Shown here piece after piece: positions 28,580 through 63,849 of a stretch of DNA of 64,000 nucleotides (position 1 is the first letter of the stretch; each line of letters opens with the position of its first letter). The notes beneath the pieces are model-generated. The model worked only from the letters and a program-made list of their open reading frames with translations, did no database searches and had not been told where the DNA came from. The stretch covers positions 1-64,000 of the forward strand of contig NZ_JBBUKT010000008.1 in NCBI RefSeq assembly GCF_038066715.1, in the 5' to 3' direction. Made by a program: the position numbers and the translations under genes. The stretch is from Luteolibacter sp. Y139 (GTDB lineage: Bacteria > Verrucomicrobiota > Verrucomicrobiia > Verrucomicrobiales > Akkermansiaceae).

Positions 28580-28934
28580 GGGGGCGTACCGGTTTCGACG
28601 GGATGTTCAAAGTGCTGGCTGCACGTGGAGGTTGATCGGCTGGCCTCCTAAAAAGCCGTTCAAAACAAATAAATGCAGACTCTAACGAGCTCGCACTGGC
28701 TGCTTAATTGACAGCCACGCCTGAACCCCGACGCCTACTGAGGGGGACGGCGAACACTTAGCAGGCTGGCCAGGAAGCCGGGGAACCGGGCCTTTTGGTG
28801 AGATCAAACAGGATCCTAGGAAAGAAAACGCCGCCGACGGGCCGAAGCTCTCCGAAATACCAGACCGTCGGATAAACGTGTAGATGCCTGTGCTAAAGAC
28901 GTTTCGGACACGGGTTCAACTCCCGTCGCCTCCA
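28580..28934 (+). ncRNA. ssrA: Transfer-messenger RNA (tmRNA)
   Basis: The 5' end ggggGCG..ACCGGTTTCGACGGG and the 3' end GGGTTCAACTCCCGTCGCCTCC match one-piece tmRNA. The acceptor stem pairs GGGGGCG (28580-28586) with CGCCTCC (28927-28933), and A28934 is the discriminator. The following CCA is not encoded. The tag frame starts at GCA 28675 and stops at TAA 28705-28707, encoding ADSNELALAA with the usual LAA end, so with the alanine from the tRNA part the tag is AADSNELALAA. It rescues stalled ribosomes with SmpB (not in the window). Confidence 0.96.
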
Positions 28935-28941
28935 CTCTTTC

Positions 28942-58852: not shown

Positions 58853-60253
58853 CTACTTCAACCGCTCCAGCGCGCGCTGCTTGCCGGGGCTGTCTGGCAA
58901 GGCTTCCACCCACTTTCTCGCGGCGGTGGGATCAATGCAGTTCCACGTGGCGGCGGCATTTGAAATGGCAGCCTCGCGGAGATCGCCTTCAGGCAGGCCC
59001 TCGACATGGGTGATCGCTGCTGATGGGTCCTGATGCGTCCACACGATCATTCCCGTTTGGAAGGCCTGATCGCGGCTGGCTTCTTCAGGCAGGGCTTGTG
59101 CCCATGCGACTGCTTCCGGTGCATTCTTTTGAGCCCAGGTTTCCACGATCGCGGGAGCCCATGACCGGCGCAGGGCCAGAGGTTGGCGGTCGAGCCATTC
59201 GCCGACGACGGGGCCATAGAGGAAGGGACCTTCGGCAAAGCCGGTGGTGGGAACTTCGGGGATGACGCCGAGACGAGTGACCTCCGCTCCCAACTTCTCC
59301 AAGGCCGGTCCCCAATTTTCCGGACTGCGGGAAGGGATTTCCCCGAGGACATGCTCCATCCCGGCCTTCCGTGCCTCTAGGTTTCCCTCGCGGGCGATTT
59401 CCTGGAGAGTCTCTTCCGGGTGGTCCTCCAATCTCTTGAAAAGCGTGGATCGCGACCCGCCCTTGCTCCGCTCATAGTTGGCAAGGGATGCAGCGGCGGG
59501 GTCGGGTATGGATTCAGGTTCGGGATCGGCTCGATCTGCGATGAAGGCGGCCTCTTTTTCGGACAATTTCCAAAGTTCGTGAACCTTGTTCCGCAGGCCG
59601 TCGTCGCTGAGGCATTCGAGTAAGTTTTCTCCCAAGCGCCTGTCGATCCAATCGTCTTGGTCAGACGGCCCGGCTCCGGAACTTGCCTCGGGGTTCTTGA
59701 CCCGAATCGTTTGGCCGAACAATTGATCCAGGTAGTGAAGCTGCCATTGCCTCGGCTTCGAGCGGATCACTTCAGCGACGAGCTCCGGCTCGGCCTGCTC
59801 GCCATGCTTCAGGGCTTCGCAGAGGCAGTCATTCGCGCGGTAGTTCGACTTGGAGAGGAAATAGCGGATCGCTTCGGCTGGCTTGGCGTCCGCCCAGGCA
59901 GCGGCGACCAGGTTGCAAAAACTGCCACTCGAGACGGGATTGATGAGGAGTTGGTCCAAGGCTGCCACCGGGTCGGTCGCCGCGATGCGGGCGGCATCAT
60001 CGTCCGTATAGCTGCGCCCGAACGTGGTCAGTAATCCGGCGAGCGGCATCGCCTGCTTCTTGTGTTCCCACCGTTCGCTCTTCTCCAAGACAGTGTCCGC
60101 CAGCGCATTCATGCGCTGCTGGCGGCGTGTTTCGCGATGGGCCTCGACCGCGACTGCGACCGGGGGCGATGCCGATGCGGAGGACTTCGAGGGCAGCCAC
60201 GATCCTGCGGCGAAACCCGCTACTGCGACGGCGAGCATGCTCCAAGGTTTCAT
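58853..60253 (-). CDS. W..DP..A repeat protein, paralogue 2
   Basis: A 466-aa protein (ATG 60253 overlapping the upstream TGA as ATGA; the open frame to 60445 is out of frame with the neighbour and not used). The signal/anchor is SMLAVAVAGFAAGSWLP. Repeats run through the chain: VAAAWADAKPAEAIRYFL, IVETWAQKNAPEAVAWAQALP, IVWTHQDPSAAITHVEGLPEG and ATWNCIDPTAARKWVEALPD. The repeat spacing of about 33-35 residues suggests stacked helical hairpins. It is coupled to paralogue 3. Confidence 0.8.
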   Translation of the reverse strand: MKPWSMLAVAVAGFAAGSWLPSKSSASASPPVAVAVEAHRETRRQQRMNALADTVLEKSERWEHKKQAMPLAGLLTTFGRSYTDDDAARIAATDPVAALDQLLINPVSSGSFCNLVAAAWADAKPAEAIRYFLSKSNYRANDCLCEALKHGEQAEPELVAEVIRSKPRQWQLHYLDQLFGQTIRVKNPEASSGAGPSDQDDWIDRRLGENLLECLSDDGLRNKVHELWKLSEKEAAFIADRADPEPESIPDPAAASLANYERSKGGSRSTLFKRLEDHPEETLQEIAREGNLEARKAGMEHVLGEIPSRSPENWGPALEKLGAEVTRLGVIPEVPTTGFAEGPFLYGPVVGEWLDRQPLALRRSWAPAIVETWAQKNAPEAVAWAQALPEEASRDQAFQTGMIVWTHQDPSAAITHVEGLPEGDLREAAISNAAATWNCIDPTAARKWVEALPDSPGKQRALERLK

Positions 60254-62193
60254 GGCGTGGCGAACTCCCGGTTGATGCGTTCCTGCCAGTGCTCCTGTTC
60301 TCCGGGAGGCAGGGTGGCCACGATTTCTTGCAAGGACTCGAGTGTCTTCGGATCGTGTGCAAGCCGCAGGTCCATGCCGAGCGCGTTGAAGACGGTTTCC
60401 AGTGAGTGGCGACGCATGTCCGGATCGTGAAGCGCGGCTGCCCATGGGGCGGCTTGCAGCGGATCGGTATCGGCGGTGGCCGTGACGATCGAACGGATCG
60501 CTGCCTCGCGGGCGGACCCCTCCGCTTGGACCGCGATGGCTTCGGCGGTCGCGCCCGGGTCATCCGAGAATGCCTTTCCGCAGACCGCTTCCCAATCGGC
60601 AGGGGTTGCCGACGCATCGGTGGCGAGATGCATGAGGGCTGCCTGCGAATCGGCGCTTGCCCAATTGTGGTAGATGTCCGTAACCGGTTCTGCCGACTGA
60701 CTGGCAGAGCGGGCATAATCGAGCGCGGCGAGAGGATCGGTTTTGACGAGTTTTTCGACCGCCCGGCCGACTAGGACATCCCGCACCGATCCTTCGGGCA
60801 AGGTCGCGATCAGGTCCGGCAGGGCCTCGGTGTCGGGCCAGTCCCGGGGAAGCAAGGAGACGGCTTCAACGATGTCATCTGCGTGGCCAAGCTTGCGGGC
60901 AAGCCATGGAATGGCGGTATCGGGGTCCTGGCCCGCCCATGACTCGAAGGCCCCCCGGCCGGAGTGCCAGAAGTTCCGGGCGGGGATGATATCGAGGTGG
61001 TGGATCGCCTCCGCGGCATCGGTGTCCATGAGGCCTGCGAGCAACTGGGACTTGATGCCGGCAGGGGACAGGAACTCGAAGTTCCTGATCGCGTCCGAGT
61101 AGTTGCTCAGAGCGTGGGGATCGCCTGTTTCTGACCCGGGCCGGACTTCCAGATGGGGGAGGATCAAGCGCTGGAGGCCTTTTTTCTCGGTCGCGGGATC
61201 GACGGCTCCGAGGATGGCCCATGCCTTGGTGAAATCGGTGAAGGCCGCGACGGAGGCGATCCTGCCGAGGGATTCGGCACGCATCGTTGCATCGGGAATG
61301 ACACGGGCCGCTTCCTTGGCGGCGAAGTCGGGATCGTGGAAGGCGAGGCTTTCCAAGATGAGCTGGATCGAGCTGTTCCGGGCATTGCCGACGGGATAGG
61401 CGTCCGCGATGAGGTCCATCAGGGCTGGCCGGTAGTGCTCGTGATGGCCTTGGATGAAATGGGAGAGGCCGTCCAAGCAGCCCGCCGGATTCTCTTGAGC
61501 GGCCAACCATTTCTGCACGGAGGCGGGATCATACATCCAGCGGCCCCAGAGCAATTGACCCCGCAGGGCATAGAGGCCGAATCGCTTCAGCCACGCTTCG
61601 GCAGCATCAGGATCCTGACTGGCGAATTCAGCGAAGCGGTTTGTTTCGTTCTGGAAATGACCGGCGGTGATGACATCGACTGTGGCTCCGGCGGCGAGTG
61701 CTTCTTCCAAGAAAAGAAATGCCTTTGCCATGTCCTTTTGGAGCGCTCCGTTCACCAGCGCCGTCCACTCGGTGGCCGAGGGAGATGCCAGTGCGGCACG
61801 TGCTGCGGTGGTATCAAACGCGGCCCATTCCTCCAGGGCGATGTTGCGTTGTGCGCCTTCGGTGGAGGCGAAGGCCCATGCGGCAGATGGGTCTTTCTCG
61901 AACCAGCAGGAGAAGAGGCCGTGCCATGCCTTGTCATCGAGTTCGGGGACTTTCGTGAGGCGGGTGGCGATGTCTGCGAGCTGGGTGCTGTTAGAATCAG
62001 TTAGATGATCGGCGAGCCAGATACGGGTGGCGAGGTCGTCCATGCCCTCGGGCATCGGGGGCATAGATGGGGCGGCTGATGCGGAACTCCCGTCTGTTGC
62101 CTTGGCGGACTCGTCCTTCGCTTGGCGCACCATCCAGCCCGCGAACATAGCGAGGATGAAGCAGCCGATGAGGAGCAGGGGACGGGGAAGCAT
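60250..62193 (-). CDS. W..DP..A repeat protein, paralogue 3
   Basis: A 647-aa protein with start ATG 62193 (MLPRPLLLIGCFILAMFAGWMVRQ), giving a signal anchor; the frame is open to 62697, but that stretch covers the cloverleaf-like element and lies antisense to the 224-aa gene. Repeats of the theme are LFSCWFEKDPSAAWAFAS, GRWMYDPASVQKWLAAQ, SWAGQDPDTAIPWLARKL and NWASADSQAALMHLA. It is the first gene of a two-gene unit with paralogue 2 (ATGA overlap). Confidence 0.8.
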   Translation of the reverse strand: MLPRPLLLIGCFILAMFAGWMVRQAKDESAKATDGSSASAAPSMPPMPEGMDDLATRIWLADHLTDSNSTQLADIATRLTKVPELDDKAWHGLFSCWFEKDPSAAWAFASTEGAQRNIALEEWAAFDTTAARAALASPSATEWTALVNGALQKDMAKAFLFLEEALAAGATVDVITAGHFQNETNRFAEFASQDPDAAEAWLKRFGLYALRGQLLWGRWMYDPASVQKWLAAQENPAGCLDGLSHFIQGHHEHYRPALMDLIADAYPVGNARNSSIQLILESLAFHDPDFAAKEAARVIPDATMRAESLGRIASVAAFTDFTKAWAILGAVDPATEKKGLQRLILPHLEVRPGSETGDPHALSNYSDAIRNFEFLSPAGIKSQLLAGLMDTDAAEAIHHLDIIPARNFWHSGRGAFESWAGQDPDTAIPWLARKLGHADDIVEAVSLLPRDWPDTEALPDLIATLPEGSVRDVLVGRAVEKLVKTDPLAALDYARSASQSAEPVTDIYHNWASADSQAALMHLATDASATPADWEAVCGKAFSDDPGATAEAIAVQAEGSAREAAIRSIVTATADTDPLQAAPWAAALHDPDMRRHSLETVFNALGMDLRLAHDPKTLESLQEIVATLPPGEQEHWQERINREFATP

Positions 62194-62266: not shown

Positions 62267-62350
62267 CGTAGGCGCGGTGGTGACACCGCGGAAGCTGTGG
62301 GCGAGGCGGGCTGCTCGGGACCACTCCGCATTCTCACGAATGCGCCTACG
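62267..62350 (-). repeat. 84-nt cloverleaf-like intergenic element
   Basis: The outer stem CGTAGGC (62267-62273) pairs with GCCTACG (62344-62350). Hairpin 1 is GCGGTG-GTGA-CACCGC (62274-62289), a short central hairpin is CGAG...CTCG (about 62302-62317), and hairpin 3 is GCATTC-TCAC-GAATGC (62328-62343). The loops GTGA and TCAC are exact complements and could kiss. It lies between genes 62193 and 62366 and is not part of a convincing reading frame. It may be a REP-like repeat, an RNA leader of the downstream gene, or a recombination site. Confidence 0.6.
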
Positions 62351-62365
62351 GTTAGAAACTGAAGC

Positions 62366-63040
62366 TCAGCGTTTCCGCAGCTCGATTCCCTCGGGCATCC
62401 AGCCCTTCGGCATGCGGGTGATGCTGCCGGGCTGGGCTGGCTCTTGCGCGGTTGGCTGCTGGGGCTTCGTGGAAGAAGGGGTCGCGGCGTGAGTGGCGGG
62501 CGCTGGCGTGGAAGCGGGCTTGGTCGCGGCGGTCGCTTGGGACGCGGGAGGGGCGGCGACGGGCTCGACCGCGGAGGTCGGGGTGATCGCGGGGGCCTCT
62601 TCCGGGGCGGCTGCGGATGCCTGCGCGGTTTTCGGAGCGGGTGCCGGGAGCGCGGGAGGCGGCGGAGGGATGATGCCGGAGGCAGAGCCGGATTCATCCG
62701 CGGGGAGGTAGGCCATTTCGAGGCCGGGGGTGGAGGTCATGGCGACCCGGCCGCCCTTGCGGAAACGGGAGGTCACGGCGACGTCCGAGATCAGGATCGC
62801 GAGGAAGGCGGTGCCGAGCAGCAGCTGGAAGGACGCCAGGACCCGCGCGGCGAAGCCCTTGATCTCCGCATCACCAAACATCGATCTCACCACGATGCAG
62901 CCGAGGCCGCCGGTGAGGGGACCCCAGAGGAAGGGATCGGCGAATTTCGCGGTCTTTCGCACCCAAATGCGGACGCCGCTGAAAATCAGCGCGATTCCGC
63001 AGATTGCTAAAATGATTGGGACGAGAAGCGTTTGCCACAT
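62366..63040 (-). CDS. Proline-rich membrane protein, paralogue A
   Basis: A 224-aa protein with helices at TLLVPIILAICGIALIFSGVRIW (about 4-26), a loop FADPFLWGPLTGGLGC, and ASFQLLLGTAFLAILISDV (about 69-87). A long Ala/Pro-rich disordered tail follows (about 125-210), ending PGSITRMPKGWMPEGIELRKR. The same layout and end motif occur in the upstream gene (63310-63849), so they are tandem paralogues. No function is known; the tail could span the cell wall or bind partners. Confidence 0.78.
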   Translation of the reverse strand: MWQTLLVPIILAICGIALIFSGVRIWVRKTAKFADPFLWGPLTGGLGCIVVRSMFGDAEIKGFAARVLASFQLLLGTAFLAILISDVAVTSRFRKGGRVAMTSTPGLEMAYLPADESGSASGIIPPPPPALPAPAPKTAQASAAAPEEAPAITPTSAVEPVAAPPASQATAATKPASTPAPATHAATPSSTKPQQPTAQEPAQPGSITRMPKGWMPEGIELRKR

Positions 63041-63309: not shown

Positions 63310-63849
63310 TCAGGGCCGCGGCCGCAGCTGGATCCCTTCCGGTTTCCAATCCTTCGACATCCGCTCGATGGTGCCGGGCTTTTCCGGAGTCCGTGGTGCT
63401 GCGGTGGCTGGCGGTGCCTGGCCGGCTACAGGAGTCGGCTGGACTGCGGCGACTGGCGGGGCGTCCGGAGGGATGATCGGGGCGGCGGGGGCGGATCCGT
63501 CTGCGGGGAGGTAGGCCATTTCCCGCGCGGGCTCGGCCTCGCGGGGAGGCTGCTTAGCGAAATAGACGGGCCACACGCCGAGGAAGAAGAACATGGCAAG
63601 CATGAGCGTGCCGAAGAACATCTGGAATAGCGCCACCATCCGCGCGGGGAAGCCCGTGATCTGCTCATCACTGTAGAGAAATCCCACGATAAAGCAGCCG
63701 ATGCCGCCGGTGAGCGGCCCCCACAGGAAAGGATCCGCCACCCGTGTGGACTTGCGGATCCAGATCCTGATGCCATTGCCGATGGGGACGATCCCGAGCA
63801 CGAGCAGCAGGACCATTTTCCAGTTGGTGAGGACGGCAGGCAGGGTCAC
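63310..63849 (-). CDS. Proline-rich membrane protein, paralogue B
   Basis: A 179-aa paralogue of the 62366-63040 product. Helix 1 is at about 12-31 (MVLLLVLGIVPIGNGIRIW), with shared loop VADPFLWGPLTGGIGC, then helix 2 (ALFQMFFGTLMLAMFFFLGVW), EMAYLPADG (also in paralogue A), a Pro/Ala-rich tail, and the ending PGTIERMSKDWKPEGIQL. The conserved C-terminal motif after a disordered tail suggests it is a recognition element. Confidence 0.78.
   Translation of the reverse strand: MTLPAVLTNWKMVLLLVLGIVPIGNGIRIWIRKSTRVADPFLWGPLTGGIGCFIVGFLYSDEQITGFPARMVALFQMFFGTLMLAMFFFLGVWPVYFAKQPPREAEPAREMAYLPADGSAPAAPIIPPDAPPVAAVQPTPVAGQAPPATAAPRTPEKPGTIERMSKDWKPEGIQLRPRP

Follow-up and report, generated by a model that had tools for sequence, protein, structure and literature searches.

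The element described here lies between two genes of Luteolibacter sp. Y139 (7.1 Mb in 31 contigs; assembly 96.7% complete), a member of the Verrucomicrobiota placed in one genus-level group with Haloferula sp. BvORR071, within a stretch of 64,000 nucleotides that was analysed as a whole and is referred to as the window. The stop codon of the upstream gene is 15 bases from the element, and the likely start of the downstream gene, judged by the hydrophobic N terminus of its product, is an ATG at 62193, 73 bases away; an 815-aa open reading frame in the frame of this latter gene merely stays open through the element. The upstream gene and one beyond it (62366-63040 and 63310-63849, both on the minus strand) look like paralogs, with 33% identity over 176 alignment columns, and neither has a Pfam match at E up to 0.1. 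A tmRNA gene, with the tag ADSNELALAA, is found elsewhere in the window, at 28580-28937 on the plus strand; it was the only Rfam match in the window, the region of the element giving none at E up to 1. The features of the locus are listed below, the REP ends being matches to the pattern CGTAGGCGC-NNNN-GTGA-NNNN-GCG, in which one base separates the GTAG head from the stem.

60250-62193, minus strand: gene for a 647-aa protein, downstream of the element
62267-62350, no strand: the whole 84-bp element, very probably a REP doublet (BIME/REPIN-type element)
62268-62290, plus strand: first REP, an exact match to the end pattern; GTAG head 62268-62271, stem 62273-62279 with 62284-62290, loop GTGA 62280-62283; stem allele GGTG/CACC
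62291-62326: inter-REP spacer of 36 bases, holding a weak third hairpin
62327-62349, minus strand: second REP, inverted, an exact match to the end pattern; GTAG head 62349-62346 (minus strand), hairpin 62327-62344, loop GTGA on the minus strand (TCAC on the plus strand); stem allele ATTC/GAAT
62366-63040, minus strand: gene for a 224-aa protein, upstream of the element

The element is closed by a 6-bp outer stem, CGTAGG/CCTACG, in which 62267-62272 pairs with 62345-62350, and encloses two perfect 7-bp hairpins, the left one (62273-62290) with the loop GTGA and the right one (62327-62344) with the loop TCAC. All the parts named in a preliminary description of this DNA (a perfect outer stem, two perfect hairpins with complementary loops and a small third hairpin) are thus present, the inner third hairpin being the non-constant part, as the spacer varies among copies. 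When the element was folded as single-stranded DNA, the cloverleaf was the minimum-energy structure (z -2.7; 2 of 200 shuffles equal or better), and folding as RNA yielded a similar cloverleaf (z -2.9; 0 of 200 shuffles), with a long-hairpin alternative as the centroid. The same description had considered the symmetry to be beyond random, and in fact two perfect hairpins of 7 bp with 4-nt loops, together with an outer stem of at least 4 bp, occur once in the window and never in 30 dinucleotide shuffles. The complementarity of the loops is explained without any pairing between them, since a second GTGA, read on the opposite strand, gives TCAC.

A search for copies, which had been suggested as a check, found many, and dispersed. 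BLAST against the own genome gave 24 matches at E <= 0.001, the element itself included, some spanning the whole element and many only one end. Exact ends, each with GTAG at the foot of a palindrome as in REPs, number 40 in the own genome and 82 (G039), 15, 9 (G108), 2 and 1 in five other genomes of the genus group. In all, 7 of the 145 family genomes have an exact end, that of the seventh (G130, from another genus) being a single chance-like match. When up to two mismatches were allowed, 91 matches were found in the own genome versus 63 for the reversed pattern, and 188 in G039, 100 of which are among the matches listed, versus 112 for the reversed pattern; the additional ones are mostly chance-like. 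The copies are dispersed and mostly intergenic, as expected of REPs: of 85 ends, 6 fall within called open reading frames of at least 200 aa and 11 within shorter ones, as judged by a crude caller. Furthermore, 36 doublets with exact anchors were collected from 4 of the 18 genus genomes, and in these the inverted REPs stand at near-constant spacing, which is the arrangement of BIMEs and REPINs; in G039, doublets also form tandem arrays with periods of about 103 and 120 bases (L160, L162, L163 and L150). One copy in the own genome (L047, with an end at G000:C4:221554) has a collapsed form with both heads around one hairpin, and resembles the 'double foot' REPs that PMC6006769 attributes to deletion between two REPs. 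Four other genus members (G125, G129, G114 and G093) have 15 to 36 RAYT-like matches each and zero exact copies of the GTGA-family end, so other REP families may exist there.

The behaviour of stems and loops among these copies distinguishes a maintained hairpin from a pair of interacting loops. The covariation count used all 30 distinct exact ends, including that of G130; the pattern fixes the heads, the loop and the three lower stem pairs in these, leaving four stem pairs free. In the free pairs, 90.0% of the cells are paired versus 78.0% in shuffles, the covariation score is 0.347 versus 0.139, and 29 cells are changed on both sides versus 10.8, none of 500 shuffles being as high in any of the three, and sliding the stem partner abolished the three signals. 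The other two of the five pair measures, namely the pairs with a double change (4 versus 3.3) and the further pair types, were not above shuffles, of which 157 and 123 in 500, respectively, scored as high. When arm and loop were left free, in 30 distinct arms from the 36 doublets, 112 of 120 cells were paired (shuffle mean 82, maximum 96), and at one locus of a relative (L173) a lower stem pair is also altered on both sides in a compensated manner. The hairpin is thus maintained by compensatory change, as in REPs and as the preliminary description had proposed to verify. The co-variation of the two loops, for which it had also asked, was not found. The loop is GTGA in 58 of the 72 ends of the 36 doublets, one loop being altered in 14 doublets and both in none; in an overlapping, wider set of 55 G039 doublets, one loop is altered in 21 and both in 4, and these four combine GTAA with GTGG, so that complementarity is restored in none of them.

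The piece of information that connects these repeats to a transposase came from the relatives. In G039 and G071, GTGA-family repeats flank a gene for a protein of 198-199 aa, with 65% identity between both proteins. At L150 three tandem doublets stand on one side of the gene and one doublet on the other, at L151 repeat ends are found on both sides, and at L173, in an Akkermansiaceae MAG, a third relative with a broken frame is bracketed by repeat ends. Hence, the gene is bracketed by the same REPs in three loci of relatives, two with intact genes and one with a broken gene. The two intact genes look like RAYTs on the basis of their sequence: their best match among solved structures is 4er8, TnpArep (E 0.0014), and they score 43.0 and 50.9 bits with the NCBIfam model NF047646, REP_Tyr_transpos, neither reaching its 80-bit cut-off, which is a curated value and not a defining residue. 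Pfam Y1_Tnp matched one of them with 18.3 bits (cut-off 23) and did not match the other. Both proteins contain a putative HUH motif (H67-A-H69, HxH), Y128 as the candidate catalytic tyrosine, and N132; by their spacing, Y128 and N132 would be the equivalents of Y115 and N119, the residues named for the E. coli RAYT in PMC8266576 and PMC6006769.

The distribution of this gene only partly follows that of the repeats. At E <= 1e-15, this RAYT is present in 3 of the 18 genus genomes, of which two rank first and third in repeat copies and the third has none; G120 carries a RAYT relative and zero exact GTGA-family ends. At the same threshold none was found in the own genome, which ranks second with its 40 ends, and G108 has its 9 exact ends without a cognate RAYT. 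Several proteins of the own genome were considered as movers of the repeat and discarded: the Y1 protein L037 is an IS200-type TnpA with no repeat in the scanned stretches, and no repeat was found in those scanned for the RAYT-like L038, L039 and C5:248658 (L152-L154).

A further clue was derived from synteny. In G039, homologues of both neighbours are found in conserved order, and the element is missing between them (L176); G101 has a homologue of the downstream gene without such an upstream neighbour and without the element. The G039 homologues show identities of 50% over 60 residues and of 40%, and the fact that the element-free site is flanked by proteins only 40-50% identical was counted against the REP/RAYT reading, as were the lack of a cognate RAYT in the own genome at E <= 1e-15, the mismatch between RAYTs and exact ends in G108 and G120, the RAYT profile scores below their cut-offs and the two pair measures not above shuffles. 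The absence of the element from the one fully comparable locus points to insertion or loss, and not to a conserved leader.

Considering the copies, the stem covariation, the independence of the loops, the bracketing of RAYT genes in relatives and the element-free syntenic locus, the 84-bp unit is very probably a mobile REP doublet, consisting of two GTAG-headed REP hairpins inverted around a variable spacer and mobilised by a RAYT-type transposase. This was one of three possibilities raised in the preliminary description, a REP-type repeat with its transposase, and the GTAG heads, the compensated stems, the many copies and the bracketed RAYT genes all speak for it. The other two, a structured leader RNA and a pseudoknotted RNA, are not supported. 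A dedicated leader, or a riboregulator with pairing loops, would agree with the stable fold and with the complementary loops, and is nonetheless highly improbable, given that the element is dispersed in many copies, yields no Rfam hit with E up to 1, and shows no conservation at orthologous gene leaders in L176, the only locus found with both neighbours in order. Moreover, its loops change singly in 14 of the 36 doublets, without a matching change on the other side, and the four double changes in G039 are non-complementary. As for other small mobile elements, a MITE of a DDE transposase or an integron attC-like site would likewise have terminal inverted repeats and hairpins, and such an origin is barely credible for an element whose ends bear a GTAG head and bracket RAYT genes, and whose two 20-base flanks contain no target duplication obvious by eye.

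Another proposal, compatible with a mobile origin, is that the host has taken over the element, so that its transcribed hairpins guard the upstream mRNA at its 3' end or cause attenuation of the gene downstream, roles that have been proposed for REPs elsewhere. The setting is suggestive, as the element lies 15 bases past one stop and 73 before the next start of co-directional genes. In addition, 46 of 73 single or asymmetric ends have, on the GTAG side, a nearest gene of the same direction (crude calls, at any distance), which means that the 3' end of the gene faces the REP. However, the syntenic locus of G039 does without the element, and we consider such a take-over unlikely here.

The mechanism most likely to account for a mobile REP doublet can be described briefly. 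In a single-stranded stage, as at replication, each REP would fold into its own hairpin. A dedicated RAYT, that is, an HUH-type tyrosine transposase, would recognise the GTAG head and the GTGA loop, would tolerate many complementary stems, and would cut and rejoin the strand, whereby doublets would be copied or moved to new intergenic places. We infer that a RAYT of this kind, reading head plus loop, moved the element at 62267-62350, and that this RAYT was later lost from the own genome, which holds remnants.

The GTGA family is not the only one in the genus. A second REP family, GTAGCGGAA...CTGCG...TTCCG, with the head GTAGC, a variable stem and the loop CTGCG, has 46 exact ends in the own genome, where it forms unlike doublets whose ends are separated by 83-85 bases. 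This second family brackets a RAYT homologue of G120 that shares 54% identity with the G071 protein and contains one stop (L171 1259-2278). Exact copies of it were absent from the one-contig genomes G048 and G019.

In both families, the two stems of a doublet are usually unlike. They differ in 35 of the 36 GTGA-family doublets from 4 genomes. Random pairing of these doublets would give only 3.5 identical ones, so this count is in itself weak evidence (P 0.11 by identity, 0.004 by mismatches); on the 22 distinct doublet types, the values are 0.37 and 0.013, respectively. In the overlapping set of 55 G039 doublets the stems differ in 53, leaving 2 identical versus 6.2 expected (P 0.035), and when one doublet per region was taken, 0 of 38 were identical versus 3.9 expected (P 0.012). 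The departure of the GTGA family from random pairing is thus modest, with P values between 0.003 and 0.37 depending on the test and the set used, among copies that are not independent of each other. In the second family, the stems differ in 10 of 10 doublets of the own-genome stretches, one further case representing a chance partner.

An unanticipated regularity concerned single ends, defined as those whose facing partner, if any, has at least 3 mismatches more. Their strand was compared with the GC skew of the surrounding stretch (about 20 kb; 93 stretches, L178-L270, picked around known ends of draft genomes), the skew being taken as a sign of replication. In the GTGA family, 61 of 71 single ends lie on the C-rich strand: 31 of 32 in the own genome, 20 of 27 in G039, 5 of 5 in G071, 5 of 6 in G108 and 0 of 1 in G101, the skews being small in G039, G071 and G101. 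The figure is 42 of 46 at an absolute skew of at least 0.05, and 45 of 52 by region (p 7e-8). All 37 single ends of the second family (33 from the own genome and 4 from G039; 28 of 28 by region) are on the C-rich strand as well. With single ends defined in other ways, the first 53 stretches yielded 40 of 45 and 43 of 50, and the inclusion of asymmetric doublets 63 of 73; the third-position and intergenic skews concur (63 of 73 and 62 of 73). Composition predicts the reverse, since eight scrambled patterns of the same composition placed only 154 of 589 matches on the C-rich strand. Nor does gene direction explain the polarity, as 22 of 24 ends whose nearest gene on the GTAG side is opposite in direction are still on that strand. 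The identification of the G-rich strand with the leading strand was checked at only two genes: the ribosomal L14 gene of the own genome, encoded on the strand whose G excess shows in a stretch about 27 kb distant, and the tmRNA gene of the window, on the G-rich plus strand.

Whole G039 doublets had no such orientation bias, the GGTC end being on the C-rich strand in 21 of 40, the GGTG end in 11 of 23 and the better-kept end in 22 of 35. A bias of ends with a degenerate partner, seen in an earlier sample around single ends of G000 and G039 (23 of 26), was discarded, as the larger G039 set disagrees. Separately, contig C5 of the own genome (451 kb) has a very strong GC skew of 0.22-0.41 in stretches from its first 180 kb (L187-L192 and L243), with the same sign in genes of both directions in L187-L192; its intergenic regions contain many short palindromes, and its listed single ends of both families all point one way.

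We propose, tentatively and with somewhat less than even confidence, that single REPs of this genus carry a replication polarity, with the GTAG-hairpin running along the C-rich strand, the leading-strand template, in two families, and none in the first-family doublets of G039. A RAYT acting on the single-stranded lagging-strand template might remove or rewrite the REPs exposed there, so that singlets would survive on the sheltered strand; alternatively, REPs might be laid down singly with a strand bias. No earlier report of a strand polarity of single REPs was found in our literature search, whose sources were in part excerpts. According to PMC5371812, IS608 and ISDra2 prefer the lagging-strand template for their active strand, which here would be the G-rich one, whereas the REP singlets lie on the opposite strand.

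How these repeats relate to described systems can now be considered. The E. coli BIMEs, made of Y and Z REPs and associated with the RAYT TnpA_REP (yafM) (PMC2817692, PMC8266576), share the GTAG head, the hairpin, the two inverted unlike REPs, the tandem copies and a RAYT bracketed by repeats. However, the palindromes of the E. coli REPs are longer, imperfect, and contain a bulge without which they are inactive (PMC8266576), while the stem is here a perfect one of 7 bp and its loop has 4 bases, in most cases GTGA. In the Group 3 REPtrons of Stenotrophomonas and Marinomonas (REP_Sm and REP_Mb), GTAG is likewise followed by a short and perfect palindrome, and loop bases matter for cleavage (PMC8266576); these differ in loops and hosts, and in the gap between head and stem, which is of 2 bases in REP_Mb, none in REP_Sm and 1 here. 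The REPINs of Pseudomonas fluorescens SBW25 are also inverted doublets, with other REP sequences and another host; there, doublets are the likely mobile unit and singlets probable remnants (PMC3116915). Singlets in SBW25 are read as decayed doublets, whereas the strand polarity of those described here would not be expected from symmetric decay. According to the same work, tandem REP arrays in SBW25 point forward on one side of its genome, and on the other side they are reversed. Within the same phylum, the GTAG families of Opitutus terrae (Verrucomicrobia) are GTAG-tagged palindromes that form dimers (PMC3733652), a likeness drawn from their description.

The finding extends the REP-RAYT system by a worked example in the Verrucomicrobiota, a little-studied group, with the transposase found in relatives. 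That the stems are unlike is relevant to the heterodimer preference described for most families in PMC3733652, which sees no obvious explanation for it and suggests an escape from long-hairpin removal. A REP with a free upper stem, in which head and loop are largely fixed, offers a natural set of stem alleles with which the features read by a RAYT can be tested, and the one-way orientation of single REPs, should it hold, would give direct access, through genomes, to the way in which REPs spread and disappear at the replication fork.
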